DNA of 11,687 nt, taken from an uncultured bacterium (lineage in GTDB: Bacteria > CALINM01). Where the stretch lies: positions 1 through 11,687 of the forward strand of contig CALINM010000140.1 of NCBI GenBank assembly GCA_938045315.1. The letters are read 5' to 3'. The position numbers and the translations under genes are program-made. Positions within the stretch are counted from its first letter, which is position 1. Each line of letters starts with the position of its first letter. Under the pieces are notes generated by a model that was not told where the DNA came from, did not search any database, and worked only from the letters and a program-made list of their open reading frames with translations. Of this stretch, positions 1 to 10,029 are shown one piece after another.

Positions 1-917
1 CTGCGCAGGTCTTATCGCTATTCATGGTTATTGTGGCCCTATAACCACTACCACTGCAGCCGCCACCCCAGCTTTCTAATTCTGAGTCTGGATCAGGTAC
101 TGCTGTAAGGGTTACTAATGTACCATAATTATAAACCTCACTACAGTCACTACCACAGTTTATGCCTAAAGGACTACTTGTTATCTCTCCACCACCTGTA
201 CCCGCTTTGGTAACTGTAAGAGTATGAGTGTTTATACCAAAGTTAACTACTACTGTACAGTCCGAGGTTATTTGATTTGTCACATACGTGCTCCCACTCA
301 ACATACCTCCACAAGTTCCACCTACACTCTCAATATGATAACCTGTACCAGAAACTATCGCGCAAGTAGTACTAAAATTGTATTGCACTGGATTAGGACT
401 ACATGAAACTACCCCCCCATATGAGGGATTTTTATCTATACTAACGAAATATATTTCCCTCTCAAAGTCTACAACTAAAGTACAATCAGCTGTTATTGGT
501 ACTGTAGTGTAATAACCACTATTAAAAGTGCCTTGACAACCTGATATGTTTGAAATCTTGTAACCTTGATTTGGTATTATTCTAAAAATTAATCTTTCAC
601 CATAATTTACTGTTTGAGGCGTATTTGGTAAAACGCTTCCTCCTTCTCCTAGAGTTACATTTACAGTAAACCTATAAATATCAAAATTAGCAACTATATT
701 TTTGTTTGAATCAAGGTTTAAGGTGATCGGGTTCTGTGATGAATTTATAACTCCAGACCAATGGCTAAAGTATGTGGCAGGTGAAGAATTATATGCGGTA
801 ATTGTTATCTGTTGTGTTGTAAATTCATTAGAACAAACTCGAGATGGACAATTGATGCCTTCTCCTAAAACAAAACCATAGTCGATATTAGGCATTATAG
901 AGATATTTACAGTAACT
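1..917 (-). repeat. InlB-like (divergent bacterial surface) repeats
   Basis: At least four units of about 75 residues follow one another, starting near 917, 687, 460 and 235. Each begins with a beta strand, carries a G-G-x-[IV]-x-x-x-P segment, and ends with D-x-x-[ILV]-V-x-F-like strands such as NIVANF, TLVVDF and TVVVNF. The last visible unit has the familiar GINCGSDCSE and GGCSG cysteine motifs and runs off the left edge, so more units may follow. The cysteine pairs suggest disulfides, consistent with export. Confidence 0.75.
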
Positions 918-1239
918 TTCCCAACACCAGAAACATTTATATAGTGATCGCTTAGTAAGGCATCAGAATTAAAGCTAAAATTAGCAGTTCTTATGCCAGC
1001 AAGTGAAGGGCTAAATTTTATTTGAATATTGCCTTGTTCTAATTGATTTATTTCGTTATCTAAACAATTAGTATTTATTGGGAAATCATGAATATCACCT
1101 GTCTTTATAAATTCATTAATATTCAAGCTTCTAAAACCTGTATTATAGAGGATAAAGGATTCCTCTTGTGAAAAATAACCAAGATAAACTGTGCCAAAAT
1201 CTTTTATTGATGGTTCAATATAAATATCGGAATAACCAA

Positions 1240-2330
1240 TTTGTGTAGGTGTCTGTTTATACGTATCATTTGTTCCATCTCCAATTTGCCCAGACCTGTT
1301 ATCTCCCCATGTCCAAAGAGTATAATCTGATGAAGATGGAGATGAAGTTTTTATCCCTATAACATTTTTACCACCCACAGCAACTATAACCCAATTATTT
1401 TCTGTATCTATATTTTTGGGATATAAACTGGCTTCTGGTGCATTTCCATCACCAAGCTGTCCAAAATCATTTATCCCCCATATCCAGAGTCTACCGGCGT
1501 TCAAAGCAACACCATTATATAATCCTGCACTTATAACGGTCCTGAAAGAACTTAAATCAAGGGCTTAAAGATTTGAGTTTAATGTGGGAGTTGAAAAAGC
1601 AATACCCGCATACATACCAAGTGCTCCTGTGTTATGACCCCAAACATATAGCCTACCATTATTTTTAACCCCATATGAAAACTGCCATCCCGCCGACACA
1701 AGTACCCAATCATTATCTAAACCTACCTTTTGTGGCATGCCCACATCATTAAAACCAGCATCCCCATTCCCAATTTGGCCATACAAATTTCCACCCCAAG
1801 CATAAAGTTCGCCATTATTTGAAATTGCTAATACATGATCATAACCAGCAGAGATTTTATTAAATGAAACACCAGTGGGAAGAGTTACCTGAACAGGAAC
1901 TCTACTGGATGTAAATAAACCATTACCCAATTGACCTGATGCTCCATCACCAAAAGCCCATAAAGAACCATCAATTTTTTTGCAATGGTAAAATATCCAC
2001 CTGCATAGACTTCAACCCAGTCACTTTCATTACCAATTTGTGTAGGAACATTTACCCTGTAATAATCTTTTCCTAACCCTAACTGTCCAAAAGAATTATC
2101 CCCCCAGCCCCACAATGTACCATCATTTTTTATAGCTACAGTGTGACTCCACCCTGCAGAAACATCTTTCCATCGTGATTGCCCATCAATAAGAACAGGT
2201 AAATTTTTATCTACATTTGTTCCATCTCCAACCTGTCCGTTATTGTTCTTCCCCCATGACCATAATTTACCATCAGGCTTAAGGACAAGGATATGTGAGC
2301 TATTTAGGTTACTAACTCCATCACCACTAA
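1240..2330 (-). repeat. RCC1-type propeller repeats within the exported protein
   Basis: About seven units recur at roughly 150-190 bases. Each contains a WVxVSAG-like strand, an alanine/valine-rich strand, a G-x-L-W/Y-x-W-G turn and a GQLG- or GQIG-like end. Examples are LWSWGKNNNGQVGDG near 2225-2265, LWGWGDNSFGQLGLG near 2070-2115, LYAWGGNLYGQIGNG near 1765-1810 and LWTWGDNRSGQIGDG near 1275-1320. A set of about seven fits the number of blades in an RCC1 propeller. The unit near 1565-1660 is the most diverged and holds the in-frame stop. Confidence 0.8.
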
Positions 2331-2452
2331 CAACGATTTTAGGTTGTATTGGCTGAAATGGAAAAATATATGAAGCTTTTATAAAAAAAATAAGTAAAAT
2401 TAAGAAGATTTTTTTAGCATATTTTAATTTTACTCAAGTTTTAAAAAAATAA

Positions 2453-3313
2453 CTACTTTCTCTCTAATGGAAAAATCTGATACTCCGGTGGATTTTCTAA
2501 TCCCCTCACCACCCTATCGAAATATGAACCTTCCCTAACACTCGATTTTGGAAAATTAACAATAGGCAATGGTTCTTGTGATATGCCCATTTTTTTTAAC
2601 CCCTCTAAACCTAATTTGATTATGAGAGCACTCTCAGCTACTGTTTTACCTAAATTTCTAAGGCTCCTTAAATTTAATATTCCACCAATGGGTGGTTTTG
2701 TTCTTGATGAATCTGGAAGAAAACCCATTTCACCTAAAGGAATTTTAGAATCGCTCGTATCCACGAGCCCTCCTAAAAAAGAAGCCTGCGGAGGTGGATC
2801 AGATTTATGAGGTTTTGCACCAACTACAAAGCTACTTCCTATGGATAAAGCCCATTTATGGATAGTAGAAAGCGCTGATTCCTGTCCACCCCTTCTTTCA
2901 AAGGCAACTACAACCCCTCCTACAACTTTATTTCTTATTGCACCGCTCAATGATGATCCAGCATAATGACAGAATGGCGCTCCCCTTTCGAAAAGTGCTT
3001 TAAGTTTTGCAGACACATCAAAAGCATATGAGGGAGTACCAATGATGATTCCATCTGCATCTGCAATCTCTTTATAAATTTCTCCCACATCGTCTTTGTG
3101 AACAAAACACACATTTTCCCAGCTTGCACCTTTGTTAAATCCATAGCATTGATAACACCCTTCACAGGGATAAATTTTTTTATCCGCAAGGCTAATGAAT
3201 GACGTTTCTATATTTTTATAAACTTCTTTTGAAGCTTCTAAAGCTATTTTTATAGCTGTTTCAGTATTGCCTTTTCTCGGACTCCCAGAAATACCAAGAA
3301 TTTTAACTTTCAT
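2453..3313 (-). CDS. Flavodoxin-fold NAD(P)H-dependent oxidoreductase / iron-sulfur flavoprotein-like
   Basis: This 286-residue protein begins with a flavodoxin-like strand and FMN-phosphate loop (GISGSPRKGNTE, residues 8-18) and has a second FMN loop at GTPSY (92-96). Cysteines at 50, 53, 56 and 69 form C-x2-C-x2-C-x12-C. That resembles the cluster-binding motif of iron-sulfur flavoproteins (Isf), but with wider spacing before the last Cys. By family, a cytoplasmic FMN enzyme moving electrons from NAD(P)H or ferredoxin is likely; the substrate is unknown. The C-terminal part, from about residue 165, is longer than in typical 190-220-residue relatives and is rich in Pro and Gly. I chose ATG 3311-3313 because GGAG lies about eight bases upstream. 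An in-frame start 24 bases earlier has no such support. It overlaps the preceding gene by 11 bases, so the two are probably translationally coupled. Confidence 0.85.
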   Translation of the reverse strand: MKVKILGISGSPRKGNTETAIKIALEASKEVYKNIETSFISLADKKIYPCEGCYQCYGFNKGASWENVCFVHKDDVGEIYKEIADADGIIIGTPSYAFDVSAKLKALFERGAPFCHYAGSSLSGAIRNKVVGGVVVAFERRGGQESALSTIHKWALSIGSSFVVGAKPHKSDPPPQASFLGGLVDTSDSKIPLGEMGFLPDSSRTKPPIGGILNLRSLRNLGKTVAESALIIKLGLEGLKKMGISQEPLPIVNFPKSSVREGSYFDRVVRGLENPPEYQIFPLERK

Positions 3314-3953
3314 TTGTAATCTCCATGTTTTTTTCAATATAATTTTTCAAATCATAAAATGTGAAAAAAGGACGTCCTATAAATCTTTTTATATCTAAGA
3401 ATTCTTCTTGTAAAGAACACAAGACATTGGCTACAATACAATCGAGTCTCAAATTTTTTGAATCATCATTATAATAAATGAGGGGGTGTAAATACTTCCA
3501 GCTATTTTTTAACCTATCGTACATTGATGTAAAGCATTTTTCAATTGTAGTTTTAATTTTATCTATATCATTATAATAAAAATTTTGAAAACTTTCTAAA
3601 TAGTCTCTTTTAATTTTATTGCTTAATAGTTTATCCTTTCGTATGACAAAACTGCTAAACTCTCCATTATTTAAAATGATGTAAAAAATAAAATTTTTGT
3701 ACTTTGAATTTAAAACTGTAAATGGTAAAAAAGGCTCTCCATATTTTTCAACAAAGGTAATGTTAATAAAATAATTTTCAAACCTTTTTTTGTTCTGAAA
3801 AGCCTCTATCACGCCATCTTTTAACTCTTTAATTGAAGGGAATTTTAAAAATAAATTACTGTTCTTTATCTCTGCAGATATAATATTAGTTAGAAAAACT
3901 TCTAACCCCGACCTTTCTAATGTAAGCTTATTTAAGATTTCTAAAACATTCAT
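3303..3953 (-). CDS. Hypothetical protein
   Basis: A 216-residue protein I do not recognise. It looks soluble: there is no signal peptide or convincing membrane segment. It is rich in Lys, Asn, Phe and Tyr, with a cluster of aromatics near the C terminus (RPFFTFYDLKNY). The start is placed at ATG 3951-3953. A longer version using TTG at 3990-3992 would run through a perfect inverted repeat (3965-3993) and is less likely to be translated. No Shine-Dalgarno is visible before the ATG. The 3' end overlaps the flavoprotein start by 11 bases, so the two probably act in one operon and may be functionally linked, for example as partner and redox enzyme; this is inference from arrangement only. Confidence 0.7.
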   Translation of the reverse strand: MNVLEILNKLTLERSGLEVFLTNIISAEIKNSNLFLKFPSIKELKDGVIEAFQNKKRFENYFINITFVEKYGEPFLPFTVLNSKYKNFIFYIILNNGEFSSFVIRKDKLLSNKIKRDYLESFQNFYYNDIDKIKTTIEKCFTSMYDRLKNSWKYLHPLIYYNDDSKNLRLDCIVANVLCSLQEEFLDIKRFIGRPFFTFYDLKNYIEKNMEITNES

Positions 3954-3993
3954 AATAATAAAACTTTGGGAGCGGTAAATAGCCGCTCCCAAA
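3954..3993 (-). terminator. Perfect GC-rich hairpin with T-rich tail
   Basis: TTTGGGAGCGG (3965-3975) and CCGCTCCCAAA (3983-3993) pair perfectly over 11 bp around a seven-base loop. On the minus strand it is followed by GTTTTATTATT, a tolerable U-tract for Rho-independent termination. It would end the nadB-aroQ transcript. It lies only about a dozen bases before the ATG of the hypothetical gene, so it could instead work as an attenuator or 5' UTR hairpin for that gene. Confidence 0.55.
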
Positions 3994-4016
3994 CCCGGGA
4001 ATAAATCAAGTTTAAA

Positions 4017-4040
4017 GACCCCAAAGGGGTCAGCACCCCT
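4017..4040 (-). promoter_or_regulatory. Two mutually exclusive hairpins (attenuator-like)
   Basis: Two perfect 6-bp stems share the same bases. On the plus strand, GACCCC (4017-4022) pairs with GGGGTC (4026-4031) around AAA. Alternatively, AGGGGT (4025-4030) pairs with ACCCCT (4035-4040) around CAGC. Only one can form at a time, as in terminator/antiterminator switches. The T-tract after the minus-strand GACCCC hairpin is short (TCTTTAAA), so termination there would be weak. Function is inferred from geometry alone. Confidence 0.35.
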
Positions 4041-4089
4041 CTTTACAATGGGTTACAGGTCGTAACATATATTTTGCTCTTGCTACCAT
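4030..4089 (-). CDS. Possible 19-residue small ORF or leader peptide
   Basis: ATG 4087-4089 opens a 20-codon frame ending in TGA and encoding MVARAKYMLRPVTHCKEGC. It is preceded by AAGGGGGTGA, a near-perfect anti-SD match, about six bases upstream. This is the strongest ribosome-binding site in the window. The preceding gene stops within that site, which fits coupled translation. Its last codons and stop fall inside the alternative hairpins at 4017-4040, as in a leader peptide, but the codon content suggests no particular amino acid (two Cys, three Arg). Alternatively, adding one A to the A7 tract at 4103-4109 fuses it in frame to the upstream gene as a C-terminal tail. I know of no homologue. 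Confidence 0.35.
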   Translation of the reverse strand: MVARAKYMLRPVTHCKEGC

Positions 4090-4094
4090 ACTTT

Positions 4095-4313
4095 TCACCC
4101 CCTTTTTTTGTATTCAGTTATTTTCACAACCTGCTGAACACCCGGCATTTTCTCAAGATCTGTAACATCAAAACCAACGACATCACCTATAACTCCTATT
4201 ATTACATGTTTCATACCCGTGGATTGATGAATATCAAAATTATTTGATATAAGATAATCTTTTACCCGCTCAATGTCCTCCTGAGTAGCAGTAGATTCCA
4301 TTATAACTAGCAT
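4095..4313 (-). CDS. Stand-alone DAHP synthase N-terminal (ferredoxin-like) domain protein
   Basis: The 72 residues match the N-terminal regulatory domain of AroF/AroH-type 3-deoxy-7-phosphoheptulonate synthases: an MLVIMESTATQEDIERV-like start, then an HVIIGVIGD strand, then LEKMPGVQQVVKITEYK. In full-length enzymes this is followed by the (beta/alpha)8 catalytic domain with GPC-ES and KPRTS-like motifs, and none of that is present downstream. The domain ends near the usual linker (PYKL becomes EYKK). It is either a free ACT-like regulatory subunit or the remnant of a truncated aroF. ATG 4311-4313 follows the aroQ stop by four bases, with AAGGGAGA about nine bases upstream. The chorismate mutase next door supports a link to the shikimate pathway, perhaps as a feedback or assembly subunit acting with a synthase encoded elsewhere. 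Confidence 0.75.
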   Translation of the reverse strand: MLVIMESTATQEDIERVKDYLISNNFDIHQSTGMKHVIIGVIGDVVGFDVTDLEKMPGVQQVVKITEYKKRG

Positions 4314-4317
4314 TTAT

Positions 4318-4599
4318 TTAGTCTCCCTTAGCCCTTATTCTTTCTAATCTTCTTGCTTCATCAATTATACGCTCGAATAATCTTATTATAGCATTGTTTT
4401 CAAGGGGACCGGTATTTTCTTTTATTAATTTCTCAATTATTTTTTTCTCACGTTCTGGATCGTAAACAGGTAAATTATATTTTTTCTTTATTTCTCCTAT
4501 TGCCAAAGCTATTTTAGATCGCTCATTTAAAAGCTGAAGGAGTTTACTATCTATTTTATCAATTTCCTCTCTCAATACTTCTATTTCAGATAACATCAT
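4318..4599 (-). CDS. aroQ: Chorismate mutase, AroQ class
   Basis: A 93-residue all-helical protein of the size of monofunctional AroQ chorismate mutases, converting chorismate to prephenate for Phe and Tyr synthesis in the cytoplasm. Visible family residues include R10 in LREEIDKID, R27 in LLNERSKIA, K38/K39, D47 and R50-E51 in VYDPEREKKI. The position usually held by Gln88 in the E. coli enzyme appears to be Glu86 (ARRLERI), a substitution also known from the yeast enzyme. The start overlaps the nadB stop in an ATGA (4596-4599). A second ATG follows immediately, so the true start may be three bases later. It lies in one transcription unit with nadB and the DAHP-synthase-like domain. Confidence 0.92.
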   Translation of the reverse strand: MMLSEIEVLREEIDKIDSKLLQLLNERSKIALAIGEIKKKYNLPVYDPEREKKIIEKLIKENTGPLENNAIIRLFERIIDEARRLERIRAKGD

Positions 4600-6212
4600 A
4601 AATAACCACCAGGTTTTCTAAAAATAATTGTGTCCTTTAACCACATAGAATCATCGGTAGTTGGATAATCAAGATTATAATGTAATCCTCGTGATTCTTT
4701 TCTCATTGATGCACAGGTAATTATTAGATCCGCAATATTGGTAAGGTTTCTTAATTCCAATAAATCTGTATTTGGTTTAAAATGAATATAATATTCTCTT
4801 ATCTCATCTTTTAAAAGCTCGATACGCCTTTTTGCCCTTTCTAATCTTTTATCAGTTCTAACAATACCAACATAATTCCACATAAGTCTTTTAATTTCAT
4901 CCCAATTATGCTTAATCATAATCATTTCTTCAGGATCAATGTAAGTATAGTATTTCCATGGTGCTACAAGATCAATCTTTACTGTTTTTGTTTCATGAAG
5001 CTTTTTAACACAATCTTCATAAGCATTATGTGCAAACACAACTGCTTCTAAAAGAGAATTGCTTGCCAGCCTATTTGCTCCATGTAAGCCTGTACATGCA
5101 ACTTCTCCAATTGCATAAAGATTAGAAAGTGTAGATTCACCATTCTTATCTGTTAGAACACCACCACACATATAATGAGCTGATGGAACAACAGGTATCC
5201 AATCTTTTCTAATATCAATGCCATTGGAAAGGCAATGTTCAAAAATTTGAGGGAATCGTTTTATTATAAAATCTCCATTAAGGTGTGTTATATCAAGATA
5301 AACATGTTTTAAACCATATTTTTTCATCTCCACATCAATAGCTCTTGCCACTATGTCCCTCGGTGCTAAATCTTTTAAGGGATGATATTTCTCCATAAAA
5401 GTTTTTCCATCAGGGAGTCTCAATACACCACCTTCCCCCCTTACCGCTTCAGAGATCAAAAAAGATTGAACACCATTAGATTGATACAGAGCAGTTGGAT
5501 GAAATTGAAAAAATTCCATATTTGCAATTTTTGCACCTGCACGGTATGCCATTGCAACACCATCACCTGTAGCAATAGTGGGATTTGTTGTATGTAGGTA
5601 CACTTGTCCACCACCACCTGTAGCAAGCACTACAAATTTAGCAACAAAGGTTTTTACTTCACCTGTTGATTCATCAAGCACATAAGCACCAAAACATCTA
5701 TCTTTGTTAGGGACTTGTTTTGTTAGTTTAGACTCAATTAATAAATCTATAGCAAAATGATTCTCTAAAAGTAGAATATTTGGTATTTGCTTAATTCTAT
5801 CCACAAGAGTTTTTTCTATCTCTCTGCCTGTAAAATCTCCAGAATGGAGAATTCTTCTATGTGAATGCCCACCTTCTTTACCTAGATCAAACCTTTTTTT
5901 CTCCTCAGATAAAGTAAAACTCATTCCCATATTAATTAAATCTTTGATTCTATCGGGAGCGGATTTTACCACCATCTCTACCACATCTTCATGACAAAGA
6001 CCAGCACCAGCAATAATAGTATCCCTTATATGATTTTCAAAAGAATCATCTTCATCAAATACTGCTGCAATGCCACCTTGAGCAAAGTTGGTACTCGAAT
6101 CAGTTCTCTTCTTTTTAGTTATTACACATACATCTCCATAGTTAGAGGCTTTAATAGCGAAAAAAAGACCTGCAATACCACTCCCTATGACAAGAAAATC
6201 TGTTACTATCAT
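4596..6212 (-). CDS. nadB: L-aspartate oxidase
   Basis: A full-length 538-residue FAD enzyme that oxidises L-aspartate to iminoaspartate, the first step of de novo NAD synthesis; in anaerobes fumarate can serve as electron acceptor. It shows the FAD dinucleotide fold (GSGIAGL, residues 10-16), NFAQGGIAAV (42-51), GGHSHRRILHSGD (114-126), the second FAD segment ATGGGGQVYLHTTNP, the active-site block FFQFHPTALY with SEAVRGEGG, the APRDIVARAI helix, and HYMCGGVLTD with GEVACTGLHGANRLASNSLLE. Together these distinguish it from succinate dehydrogenase flavoprotein, which it resembles in fold. The C-terminal helical domain is complete. It leads the nadB-aroQ operon; nadA and nadC are not in view. 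No Shine-Dalgarno precedes the ATG, and a -10-like TATAAT sits nine bases upstream. Confidence 0.95.
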   Translation of the reverse strand: MIVTDFLVIGSGIAGLFFAIKASNYGDVCVITKKKRTDSSTNFAQGGIAAVFDEDDSFENHIRDTIIAGAGLCHEDVVEMVVKSAPDRIKDLINMGMSFTLSEEKKRFDLGKEGGHSHRRILHSGDFTGREIEKTLVDRIKQIPNILLLENHFAIDLLIESKLTKQVPNKDRCFGAYVLDESTGEVKTFVAKFVVLATGGGGQVYLHTTNPTIATGDGVAMAYRAGAKIANMEFFQFHPTALYQSNGVQSFLISEAVRGEGGVLRLPDGKTFMEKYHPLKDLAPRDIVARAIDVEMKKYGLKHVYLDITHLNGDFIIKRFPQIFEHCLSNGIDIRKDWIPVVPSAHYMCGGVLTDKNGESTLSNLYAIGEVACTGLHGANRLASNSLLEAVVFAHNAYEDCVKKLHETKTVKIDLVAPWKYYTYIDPEEMIMIKHNWDEIKRLMWNYVGIVRTDKRLERAKRRIELLKDEIREYYIHFKPNTDLLELRNLTNIADLIITCASMRKESRGLHYNLDYPTTDDSMWLKDTIIFRKPGGYL

Positions 6213-6221
6213 TTAATTTTC

Positions 6222-6249
6222 ATTATAACAAAACAAAGACTCTATACAA
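6222..6249 (-). promoter_or_regulatory. Candidate sigma70-type promoter of nadB operon
   Basis: On the minus strand, TTGTAT (6249-6244), a 16-base spacer and TATAAT (6227-6222) lie nine bases before the nadB ATG. Transcription would begin at or just before the start codon, implying a leaderless message, and no Shine-Dalgarno is present. The AT-rich background makes chance matches likely. Confidence 0.45.
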
Positions 6250-6303
6250 AATAATATTATGTTAGAGAGGAGATGAAATATACTTAAATCTACAATTTAA
6301 AAT

Positions 6304-6331
6304 TTGAATTTTTTAAAAAAAATGTTAAAAT
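6304..6331 (+). promoter_or_regulatory. Candidate sigma70-type promoter of the flavodoxin gene
   Basis: TTGAAT (6304-6309), a 16-base spacer and TAAAAT (6326-6331) precede the flavodoxin ATG. The predicted start near 6338 leaves a leader of about 28 bases with a GGAGG ribosome site. The divergent nadB promoter lies about 55 bases to the left. Confidence 0.4.
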
Positions 6332-6365
6332 TAGACTAAAAAAATTCTATTTGGAGGTATTAACT

Positions 6366-6809
6366 ATGGGTAAGGTCTTAATTGTATATTTTAGTGTAAC
6401 TGGTAAAACAAAAACTATGGCTGAATTTATAGCTGAAGGAGTAAGATTTACAGGTAACGAAGGGGAAATAAAAAAAATAAATGAAATTAAAGATGTAAAT
6501 GCTTTAAACGGATATGATGCCTATATATTTGGCTGCCCAACTTATCATAAAGACATCACAGAAAATATGAAAACTTTTCTCTTTTTAGCAAAAAATGCTA
6601 ATTTAGAAGGGAAAATAGGGGGAGCTTTCGGCTCTCATACTCACAGTGGAGAGGCTCCAAAGATTATATACGAAACAATGGAACATGTTTATAAAATGAA
6701 TATGGTAAATTTAGGATATCTTCTTTTAAAGGAAGGGCAGGTTGGTACCTTTGAAGGCAATCGGGCTTGTCAGGATTATGGTAGAGCAGTGGGGAATATG
6801 ATTGTATAG
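6366..6809 (+). CDS. Flavodoxin
   Basis: A 147-residue protein of classic short-chain flavodoxin length, predicted to bind FMN and carry electrons in the cytoplasm. The phosphate loop is S-V-T-G-K-T-K-T (residues 10-17), close to the T-x-T-G-N-T consensus but with Lys where Asn is usual. The second FMN loop is GCPTY (56-60) and the third FGSHTHSGEA (88-97). The GNRACQDYGRAVG tail (131-143) matches the terminal helix of flavodoxins and short WrbA-like proteins. The start is ATG 6366-6368, because GGAGG at 6353-6357 is correctly spaced from it; an upstream in-frame start would remove that site. It is transcribed divergently from nadB. A role as electron partner for NadB or for the Isf-like flavoprotein is possible but not shown. 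Confidence 0.88.
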   Translation: MGKVLIVYFSVTGKTKTMAEFIAEGVRFTGNEGEIKKINEIKDVNALNGYDAYIFGCPTYHKDITENMKTFLFLAKNANLEGKIGGAFGSHTHSGEAPKIIYETMEHVYKMNMVNLGYLLLKEGQVGTFEGNRACQDYGRAVGNMIV

Positions 6810-6830
6810 TTTACTTTAATCTTTTTACTG

Positions 6831-6860
6831 TTGCCTTTTATTGAGTAAGTTTCATAGAAT
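6831..6860 (+). promoter_or_regulatory. Candidate promoter before the lipoprotein start
   Basis: TTGCCT (6831-6836), an 18-base spacer and TAGAAT (6855-6860) end seven bases before the ATG at 6868. No Shine-Dalgarno follows, so transcription would be leaderless, as proposed for nadB. The match is modest. Confidence 0.3.
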
Positions 6861-6867
6861 TTATAAT

Positions 6868-6954
6868 ATGAAAAGATTTCTTTTTTTTATTATAATTTTT
6901 ATATTTAATGCTTGTGGGAAAAAGGATATCGAAAAAAGGTCGATTATCTTTTAA
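6868..6954 (+). other. Lipoprotein signal peptide out of frame with the HEAT/TPR gene
   Basis: ATG 6868 opens a 28-codon frame reading MKRFLFFIIIFIFNACGKKD and then ending at TAA 6952-6954. It has a Lys-Arg n-region, a hydrophobic core and a lipobox-like F-N-A-C before Gly, so it is a convincing type II signal peptide. The downstream body, which starts with KKVDYLLKARDYEKA, lies in another frame over the same bases. The A6 tract at 6932-6937 is one base short: with seven A residues the reading becomes CGKKDIEKKVDYLLK without a break. The likely real product is therefore one lipoprotein of about 396 residues spanning 6868-8057. Confidence 0.65.
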
Positions 6955-8057
6955 AAGCCAGAGATTATGAAAAAGCGATAAATATTTTAGACGACAAAAT
7001 AAAAGAAGATCCATCTAAGGAAATATATAGAGTTCTAAAAATAAAAGTTTATGCTCGCTCAGGTAATATCGATTTAGCCTTTAAAGAATATGAAAAATAT
7101 TACTCCCTTTCAAATAAAATCAATAAAGATCTACTAAAAGAATTAGGATTAAGTCCCCTCAATGCTCAAATATCACCCTATAAATTTATGGTACTACTTA
7201 CACTCGCTGATTTTAAAAAACTCCCAGAAGATGTGAAGAAAATTGCTTATAACTCTCTATCAGATGGCGATGAGATTGTTCGAGTAGGCGGATGCTGGCT
7301 TGCTGGAAGGCATACAATAAGAGAGTGGAGTAAAGATCTTATAAAGTTGACGGCTGACGGGAAAACTGCCGTTGTCTGGAATGCTATATGGGCACTGGGT
7401 GAAATTAGAGATGAAAAATTTTTGAACCATCTTTCTTCACTTCTCGCTAATGCAAAAGATCCCTCAATAATAACTGAAACGATAAATGCAATAGGTAAAT
7501 ATAAAGATAAAAGCTCTTTAATAACGTTAAAAAAGTTCTTGAACCACTCCGGTAAAACCCTCTCAACAGCTTCACTGGCTGCTGTAGAATATATAGAAAA
7601 AGGCACTATAAAAGATACTTACAACTTCATAAAAAATCAAAAAGATGAACAATTGATGGGATTTTTATATTTGTTAATTGGAGAATACAAACAAAAAGAC
7701 CTATACAATGAGATTGTTGCTGCATTAAAGGATAGGGATAGACAATTTAAAGAAAATGCTATTAGAGCCTTAGGTGAAATGGGAGATAAAAAAGATTTTA
7801 AAATCCTGGAAACTTACTTATCATCAAAAAATCAAGCAGAGCGAATTCATGCCTATTTTTCTGCTTATAAACTTGGTATTGAAGATGTCGAAATATTCAA
7901 AAAAGGGCTTGATGACTCTGCTATAGAGATAAGAAGAATAAGCGCTATAGCTTTAAGACAAAAAAAAGATAGAGAATTAGAAAAAATGCTTCACGATAAG
8001 TTGTTAAGATCCTCGATTTTAGATAGAATTTATCTCGCATTAGCAATAACACAATAG
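6912..8057 (+). CDS. TPR/HEAT-repeat protein, probably a lipoprotein with a frameshifted N terminus
   Basis: The open frame of 381 codons starts with TTG 6912, but no ribosome site supports that start. It more likely forms the body of the lipoprotein beginning at 6868. Residues from about 8 to 70 form TPR-like helices (YLLKARDYEKAINILDDKI; IKVYARSGNIDLAFKEYEKY). From about residue 95 to the end come five to seven HEAT-like units, for example VVWNAIWALGEIRDEKFLNHL, ENAIRALGEMGDKKDFKILE and IRRISAIALRQKK. Such alpha-solenoids bind other proteins, here perhaps anchored to a membrane facing the periplasm. No enzyme motif is visible. The TPR part resembles the decayed TPR gene at 9064-9997, suggesting related surface proteins. 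An A8 tract at 7960-7967 inside the body is in frame. The stop lies four bases from the convergent SLOG gene. Confidence 0.75.
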   Translation: MWEKGYRKKVDYLLKARDYEKAINILDDKIKEDPSKEIYRVLKIKVYARSGNIDLAFKEYEKYYSLSNKINKDLLKELGLSPLNAQISPYKFMVLLTLADFKKLPEDVKKIAYNSLSDGDEIVRVGGCWLAGRHTIREWSKDLIKLTADGKTAVVWNAIWALGEIRDEKFLNHLSSLLANAKDPSIITETINAIGKYKDKSSLITLKKFLNHSGKTLSTASLAAVEYIEKGTIKDTYNFIKNQKDEQLMGFLYLLIGEYKQKDLYNEIVAALKDRDRQFKENAIRALGEMGDKKDFKILETYLSSKNQAERIHAYFSAYKLGIEDVEIFKKGLDDSAIEIRRISAIALRQKKDRELEKMLHDKLLRSSILDRIYLALAITQ

Positions 8058-8061
8058 ATAA

Positions 8062-8535
8062 TCAGCTTTTTGATAAACTCTTAAATAATTCTGATAAAAT
8101 AATACATGTTTTTTCATATATCCCTTTACACTTAGACTCCCTCGGTCCAGCAATATTCAAAATAGAAGGTTTAATATTGCCAAGCCAATTTAGAATCTTA
8201 TTGACGGGATCACTTTCTTTGTCAAGATTAACAACTAAACATGGTTTATTGAGCATAATTGCAAATTTATAAGTCTGGGCAGTACCACCATCTAATACAC
8301 CTTCGTTTATAATTAATGTGGCATCGGAAGTCTCAACATTTCTCTTAGTTCTAACTTCATAGTTGCTGGATTCAAGTTCTTGTAAAAACTCATACTTTTC
8401 ATCAATTATCCCATCTTCTGCAATTCTACCCTTTGGGATCGCTCCACCATAGGGAAGTCCATACTTTATAGCAGTATCAAGCGCTGCTCTATCAACCCCT
8501 GTTTGCCCGCCAGAAATTATTTTTAGATATTTCAT
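8062..8535 (-). CDS. SLOG-superfamily protein, YpsA-related / putative molybdenum-cofactor-carrier-like
   Basis: The 157-residue protein has the Rossmann-like SLOG fold signatures of the family once called molybdenum cofactor carrier-like: IISGGQTGVDRAALD (residues 6-20), IPKGRIAEDG (33-42), RTKRNVETSDATLII (62-76) and GGTAQT (83-88), followed by KPCLVVNLD. Members bind nucleotides or nucleotide-derived ligands; the cellular role is not settled and the carrier name should not be taken literally. It is cytoplasmic with no signal peptide. It is divergent from the CNB-domain gene 60 bases away, which hints at shared control or at nucleotide signalling. The start is ATG 8533-8535; no Shine-Dalgarno, with TATAAT seven bases upstream. 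Confidence 0.85.
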   Translation of the reverse strand: MKYLKIISGGQTGVDRAALDTAIKYGLPYGGAIPKGRIAEDGIIDEKYEFLQELESSNYEVRTKRNVETSDATLIINEGVLDGGTAQTYKFAIMLNKPCLVVNLDKESDPVNKILNWLGNIKPSILNIAGPRESKCKGIYEKTCIILSELFKSLSKS

Positions 8536-8542
8536 ATTTTAA

Positions 8543-8572
8543 ATTATATTATTCAATGGTATGATTAATCAA
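8543..8572 (-). promoter_or_regulatory. Candidate promoter of the SLOG gene
   Basis: On the minus strand, TTGATT (8572-8567), an 18-base spacer and a perfect TATAAT (8548-8543) end seven bases before the ATG. This places the transcription start at the start codon, so a leaderless transcript is predicted. Confidence 0.45.
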
Positions 8573-8595
8573 TATAGTTATATGGCTGAATATTA

Positions 8596-9048
8596 ATGGT
8601 ACAATCTTATTTTTTTAAAAATATCTATACTTTCAAAGAGTTTACAGAGGATGAAATTAATAAAATTATACAAATAATAAATCAGATCCAATTAAAAACA
8701 GGGGAAAAATTATTTTCAGAAAACGATGAAAGTGATGCATTGTATATAATTATAAATAGTAGTGCTATGATTAAAAAAGGATCAATGGTCCTCTCAATTT
8801 TAACTCAGGGAGAATGCATAGGTGAAATAACCTTTCTGAACAAAGAAAAAAGAACCGCTACTGTAACTGCAATTGAAGACTCAGAGATAATCAAGATAAA
8901 ATATGATGATCTTTATAGATTGATGGAAGAAAATTCTCAAATCGCTTCAAAGATTTACAAATCAATTGCTATAATATTGAGTAAGAGACTGGTTGAAATA
9001 AGTAATACCATAGAAACGAGATTTCAACCACTAAAATTCCTGTGTTAA
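8596..9048 (+). CDS. Single-domain cyclic-nucleotide-binding protein
   Basis: A 150-residue protein consisting of a CNB (cNMP-binding) beta-roll and flanking helices. Key parts are the N-terminal helix (FTEDEINKIIQIIN), GEKLFSENDESDALYIIINSSA, and the phosphate-binding cassette GECIGEITFLNKEKRTATVTA (72-92). In the cassette, G76, E77 and the R86-T87-A88 triplet match the residues that hold the cyclic phosphate and ribose, so ligand binding is plausible. There is no DNA-binding domain as in Crp, and no fused kinase or channel, so it is a free sensor domain or regulates a partner. No Shine-Dalgarno is visible; a weak TATAGT (8573-8578) is 17 bases upstream. The decayed TPR gene follows in the same direction 15 bases later and may once have been its partner. 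Confidence 0.82.
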   Translation: MVQSYFFKNIYTFKEFTEDEINKIIQIINQIQLKTGEKLFSENDESDALYIIINSSAMIKKGSMVLSILTQGECIGEITFLNKEKRTATVTAIEDSEIIKIKYDDLYRLMEENSQIASKIYKSIAIILSKRLVEISNTIETRFQPLKFLC

Positions 9049-9063
9049 CGAGAAATTGTTTGA

Positions 9064-9997
9064 ATAAATTTACTTATTCTTTTATCTTTTTTAACAATTC
9101 CTATAGCTTTTAAAATTATAATCTTATTAGCTATTTATTAGATTCAGGAAAAATCTGTGCATTAGCAAAAAATTTAATAGATCAGGGCAAATACAGAGAA
9201 TCAATAGAACATTTAAATAGAGCTATAGAAAAAGATAAAAAGAGCGAATATTTCTTTGTACGGACAGTGGCATATAAACAATCAGGAGAATTAGATAAAG
9301 CATTAGAGAATTTTGAATATTTTATAAAAACTGATAAAAAAATATTGAAGCTTACAAAAACACAAGTGAAATATATTTTCAAAAGGGTAAATTATATCAT
9401 GCTATTCAAAGCATAAATAAGGCACTTAATATAGAACAACAAAATACAGAGCTACTTCATATAAAAGTACGTTTATATTTACATAGTGGTATGATAGATG
9501 AAGCTTTTCAAGTATATATGGGATAGTACAATGCGATCCCAAAGATGGAGAGAGTTATTCAATGTTAGGAATATTGTATACTGCCCGGGCTGAGTATGAT
9601 AAAGCGCTAACCATGTATAATAAAGCAATAAAAATTTAACCAGAGATTGGAAACTTTATTACACAGAGGCACAAATTATATTACAATAGAATAAAAAATA
9701 TGCTTAAGCTATAAGTGATTTAATACTGCATTAAGTTTTTACAATGGCTTCACCAAAATCTATCTTCAAAGAGGCTATGCATACTAACATTCAAAAGAAT
9801 ATCTTAAAGTTATAGACGATTTTAAATTAGTACTCTCTAAAGACAATCAAAATGTGGAAGCTATCTATTATTTATTGGGTATGGCCTATAAGAATATGAG
9901 AATAATAAACGAAGTAGTAGAAATATATAAAAACTTTTTGAAAATAAAGAAATCAGAATCTTTTCAAGAACATGAAAAATACATCTGCAGAAAATAG
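9064..9997 (+). pseudogene. Decayed exported TPR-repeat protein gene
   Basis: All three plus frames carry parts of one TPR protein of about 300 residues. The order is: a hydrophobic export segment NLLILLSFLTIPIAF (from 9064, ATA where ATG is expected); AKNLIDQGKYRESIEHLNRAI (9160-9230); AYKQSGELDKALENFEYFIK (9270-9335); IYFQKGKLYHAIQSINKAL (9370-9430); VRLYLHSGMIDEAFQVY (9465-9520); LYTARAEYDKALTMYNKAI (9575-9630); and KEYLKVIDDFKLVLSKDNQ with IYYLLGMAYKNM (9795-9900). Frame changes occur near 9138, 9336-9342 (A7), 9526, 9630-9634 (A5) and 9722. In-frame stops lie at 9687, 9705 and 9785. This is too many for one switch, so the gene is dead. The parts remain recognisable, so loss looks recent. 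A LYLHSGMIDEAF segment resembles VYARSGNIDLAF of the HEAT/TPR protein at 6912. Confidence 0.85.
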
Positions 9998-10029
9998 AAG
10001 AAATATAAAATAAAAAATAGTTTTTCTGA

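Follow-up and report, generated by a model that had tools for sequence, protein, structure and literature searches.

In a contig of an uncultured bacterium, genes for an RCC1-repeat surface protein, a HEAT-repeat lipoprotein and a TPR protein are out of frame at short A/T tracts. Do such tracts switch surface proteins on and off, or are these genes being lost? The window, i.e., the whole stretch of 11,687 nucleotides that was analyzed, is contig C140 of genome G000 (1.86 Mb, 244 contigs, 91.8% complete), whose G+C content is 32%. As a same-genus reference we used G001 (MAG SKW176), in which contig JAOABK010000005.1 matches the window, and as a same-family reference G002. We found no paper on isolate SKW176. 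Synteny between G001 and the window spans almost the full window length, and therefore each break could be read against an orthologue. Lesions were called from aligned DNA and from frameshift-aware protein alignments against G001 orthologues; same-genus divergence between G000 and G001 (pS ~0.7) makes rate tests coarse. An Rfam search of the window gave no matches.

Lesions in three repeat-protein genes

The preliminary description proposed that surface-protein genes are broken in homopolymers, each one base short. The tracts it listed were all found in place, and a one-base loss at four of them (2409-2415, 1975-1981, 6932-6937 and 9336-9342) was borne out by intact G001 orthologues. The tracts that it named as controls in metabolic and other gene bodies are indeed in frame. 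At the control run in the housekeeping gene nadB (5894-5900), the two genomes differ by one codon with the frame kept: the protein reads EEKKRF in the window and is a residue longer in G001 (EEKVERF).

The exported RCC1-repeat surface protein gene (1-2433, minus strand) is broken by comparison with G001 and runs off the contig end; its G001 orthologue is open over 1461 aa, up to the contig edge. Three lesions were detected. Two are A7 runs (T7 on the plus strand) at which the reading frame is shifted by one base against G001, one where the signal peptide begins (2409-2415) and one within an RCC1 unit (1975-1981); the longest A-run at the equivalent G001 positions is 3 for the first, and the second is an A4. 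The third is an in-frame TAA at 1564-1566 on the minus strand, which lies outside homopolymers and corresponds to a Pro codon in G001. A gene on contig C138 of G000 was considered as the remainder of the RCC1 gene and rejected, as it is a different exported gene, open over 1100 aa. Its intact 1100 aa product (L169:1-3338), in which LamG-like and DUF1566-like parts were recognized by eye, has domains in common with the C-terminal portion of the RCC1 protein in G001.

The TPR gene (9060-10016, plus strand) is heavily decayed, with about ten lesions, and has an intact 335 aa orthologue in G001. At the A7 at 9336-9342 (plus strand), the frame is off by one base compared with G001, which has A5. 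The N-terminus is divergent and contains one or more stops. The stretch from 9518 to 9986 (plus strand) adds a minimum of four further frame changes (near 9518, 9637, 9663 and 9986) and of three in-frame stops (near 9692, 9716 and 9785). These were missing from the earlier list and mostly lie outside runs of 6 or more. It is doubtful that the A5 at 9630-9634, which was on that list, is a break: two alignments put the frame change a few bases later (CCAGA-GATTGG), and in both a TAA is read in the codon just before it. Thus, the placement of breaks in homopolymers held for four sites, but the list was selective, since the TPR lesions are mostly outside tracts and the RCC1 gene has the TAA at 1564-1566. 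Directly upstream of the TPR remnant, a cNMP-binding-like gene (8596-9048, plus strand; named by eye) is still open.

The HEAT-repeat lipoprotein gene (6869-8057, plus strand) has a single lesion and intact orthologues in both references, with 397 aa open in G001 and an open frame of 405 aa in G002. Directly after the lipobox, at its A6 at 6932-6937 (plus strand), the frame departs by one base from that of G001, which reads AAAAGAAA at this position and has no long run. A flavodoxin-like gene at 6351-6809, between nadB and the HEAT gene, is absent from the syntenic position in G001.

Compared with a median pN/pS of 0.15 over 201 stretches, the value was 0.42-0.49 for RCC1, 0.43 for TPR and 0.21 for HEAT (pairwise estimates only, with synonymous sites near saturation). 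These values agree with old decay of the TPR gene and an intermediate stage of decay of the RCC1 gene, although for RCC1 the raised value might also reflect fast evolution without decay, as in surface proteins. The HEAT body has retained constraint. HEAT is at most a very recent inactivation, and its single lesion and pN/pS of 0.21, which is not clearly raised, leave decay undemonstrated.

Broken genes across the genome

A census of 212 orthologous stretches (57,904 aa), covering ~523 kb of G000 and 899 kb of G001, was carried out and then rerun in the reverse direction. L098, L107, L120:1947 and L150 were left out of the count as paralogues, partial matches or unclear ORFs. About 5% of the compared genes are broken in G000, with lesions clustered in about a dozen genes, and the reverse comparison flagged only three short ORFs in G001 as candidate breaks. 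The breaks extend beyond surface genes, on which the preliminary description had focused: a HAMP-GGDEF sensor protein (L048) has one deletion and a TGA, and a response-regulator/PAS protein (L133) has one lesion, an insertion outside any run. Nor are tracts one base short as a rule, because insertions at A8 runs were found both in an outer-membrane-type protein (L053, named by eye), which also has a TAA, and in a multiheme-cytochrome cluster (L060), whose many lesions are mostly outside runs. In this cluster (L060:1110-6617, contig C31), multiheme c-type cytochrome genes carry many frameshifts and stops and are intact in G001 (L147); loss of an electron-transfer pathway is likely. A multiheme-cytochrome remnant is also present in L054.

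Assembly or base-calling errors at homopolymers, at all sites or in HEAT only, could in principle produce such breaks. HEAT, L133 and the adenylate kinase gene adk have one lesion each. The last of these (L061:10389-11045, contig C32) is 91% identical to G001, is the sole copy found in G000 and is expected to be essential; it contains an in-frame TAA at codon ~100, which may be a base error, a minority allele or something odder. The G000 assembly or population consensus therefore includes false or minority alleles, and isolated single-base lesions such as that of HEAT may be of this kind. On the other hand, 818 A/T tracts of 6 or more are in frame across 200 unbroken orthologous stretches (163 kb), which disfavors general homopolymer miscalling. 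Because these stretches were chosen as unbroken, what carries the information is the concentration of lesions in few genes. In addition, the TPR and cytochrome genes have many lesions each, mostly outside runs, and pN/pS is raised in RCC1 and TPR. We consider sequence error an unlikely explanation.

Tracts, switching and frameshifting

A/T tracts with at least 6 bases account for 2.5% of the sequence in these genes but contain four of the eight one-base deletions (binomial P ~2e-5). Runs are known to be biased toward mutation in this way, as expected of replication slippage, and the preference by itself does not imply a switch. It has been proposed that 5' poly(A) runs of 6-7 are sites of reversible inactivation, with an A7 to A6 deletion in listerial inlA (PMC2831843), and by this precedent surface proteins might be switched reversibly by slipped-strand mispairing in the HEAT A6 and the RCC1 A7 near the 5' end. 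Exported genes are broken at their extreme 5' end in two cases, and HEAT combines one lesion with a conserved body. However, the RCC1 and TPR genes have lesions outside tracts, and changing one tract cannot restore either of them. At the four lesion sites no A-run longer than 5 was found in G001 (its runs are A3-A5), and thus there is no conserved switch tract. Runs of 6-7 are commonplace, as the 818 in-frame tracts illustrate, and the exported gene on contig C138 is intact even though it contains seven tracts of at least 6. Broken genes are not enriched in tracts, the density of runs of at least 7 being 1.3 per kb versus 2.2 in intact genes. Phase variation is therefore very unlikely as an account of these genes.

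Another possibility is that the A-runs induce slippage of RNA polymerase or -1 frameshifting on the ribosome, which would yield some full-length protein. Poly-A/T frameshifts in Buchnera and Blochmannia offer a precedent (PMC3017870), and inspection by eye shows A_AAA_AAA at both RCC1 runs, in the phase that a -1 shift requires. However, the frequency of insertions in transcription climbs exponentially with run length, such that little product is expected from runs of only 6-7, and no transcription error restoring a frame was found in that study (PMC5574713). Predicted downstream structure that might stimulate -1 frameshifting was no better than shuffles at the three sites analyzed (z-scores 0.51, -1.03 and 0.90). 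The RCC1 stop lies beyond the runs, the frameshift is absent in G001 and only HEAT is otherwise intact. Such a rescue appears extremely improbable.

Switching, slippage, decay and miscalling had all been listed as possible explanations, with emphasis on breaks at the signal peptides of surface genes. Decay is supported, while the other three are disfavored as general explanations; HEAT is the exception, being the only gene of the three compatible with switching, slippage or base error. In this uncultured bacterium, whose family is poorly sampled, reversible switching of the HEAT lipoprotein at a short A6/A7 run right after its lipobox is highly improbable.

Probable gene decay and known systems

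The breaks are real, and we consider it probable that they reflect ordinary pseudogenization in an AT-rich genome whose A/T runs are hit preferentially but not exclusively. The three genes have intact orthologues in close relatives and are inactivated in the window, as is typical of pseudogenes. Extra lesions elsewhere in the gene, which the preliminary description had named as evidence against switching, were found in TPR and RCC1: both have multiple independent lesions, including some outside repeats, whereas HEAT has only one. Lesion counts are graded (about ten in TPR, three in RCC1 and one in HEAT), and the genes are probably pseudogenes at different stages, with TPR the oldest, RCC1 intermediate and HEAT very recent. 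Replication slippage in short A/T runs would be a common first inactivating hit at 32% G+C, and under relaxed selection later deletions, insertions and nonsense changes would accumulate. The genome would thereby be losing envelope, electron-transfer and sensory genes. The lesions relative to intact orthologues, their number, their genome-wide spread and the absence of conserved tracts were observed directly; relaxed selection would be the cause, and the losses are presumably irreversible. That ~5% of genes (envelope, multiheme cytochrome, sensory) are broken beside a nearly unbroken same-genus G001 suggests that lifestyle or population size changed recently. A further implication is one of caution: in AT-rich genomes early decay can mimic a switching system, with genes broken at A/T runs.

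Like swrA of Bacillus and inlA of Listeria (PMC2831843), the window has a surface-protein gene whose frame is shifted by one base at a short A-run near the 5' end; here, however, there is no sign of reversibility, the tract is not conserved in a relative and two of the three genes have extra lesions. With the slippage rescue in Buchnera and Blochmannia (PMC3017870, PMC5574713), HEAT alone shares an A-run frameshift in an otherwise conserved gene; its run is shorter and not conserved, and other genes have more lesions. Decay with A/T runs as preferred targets has a precedent: indels in poly-A/T tracts are key or initial gene-inactivation events in AT-rich genomes (PMC3017870). Our genome differs from those of Buchnera and Blochmannia in being a 1.9 Mb metagenome-assembled genome rather than that of a reduced insect symbiont, in its runs of 6-8 instead of 9 or more, and in the genes hit, which are envelope, cytochrome and signaling genes. 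What it has in common with their poly-A/T pseudogenes (PMC3017870) is a low G+C content and one-base indels in short A/T runs, with some genes carrying a single hit and others far decayed.
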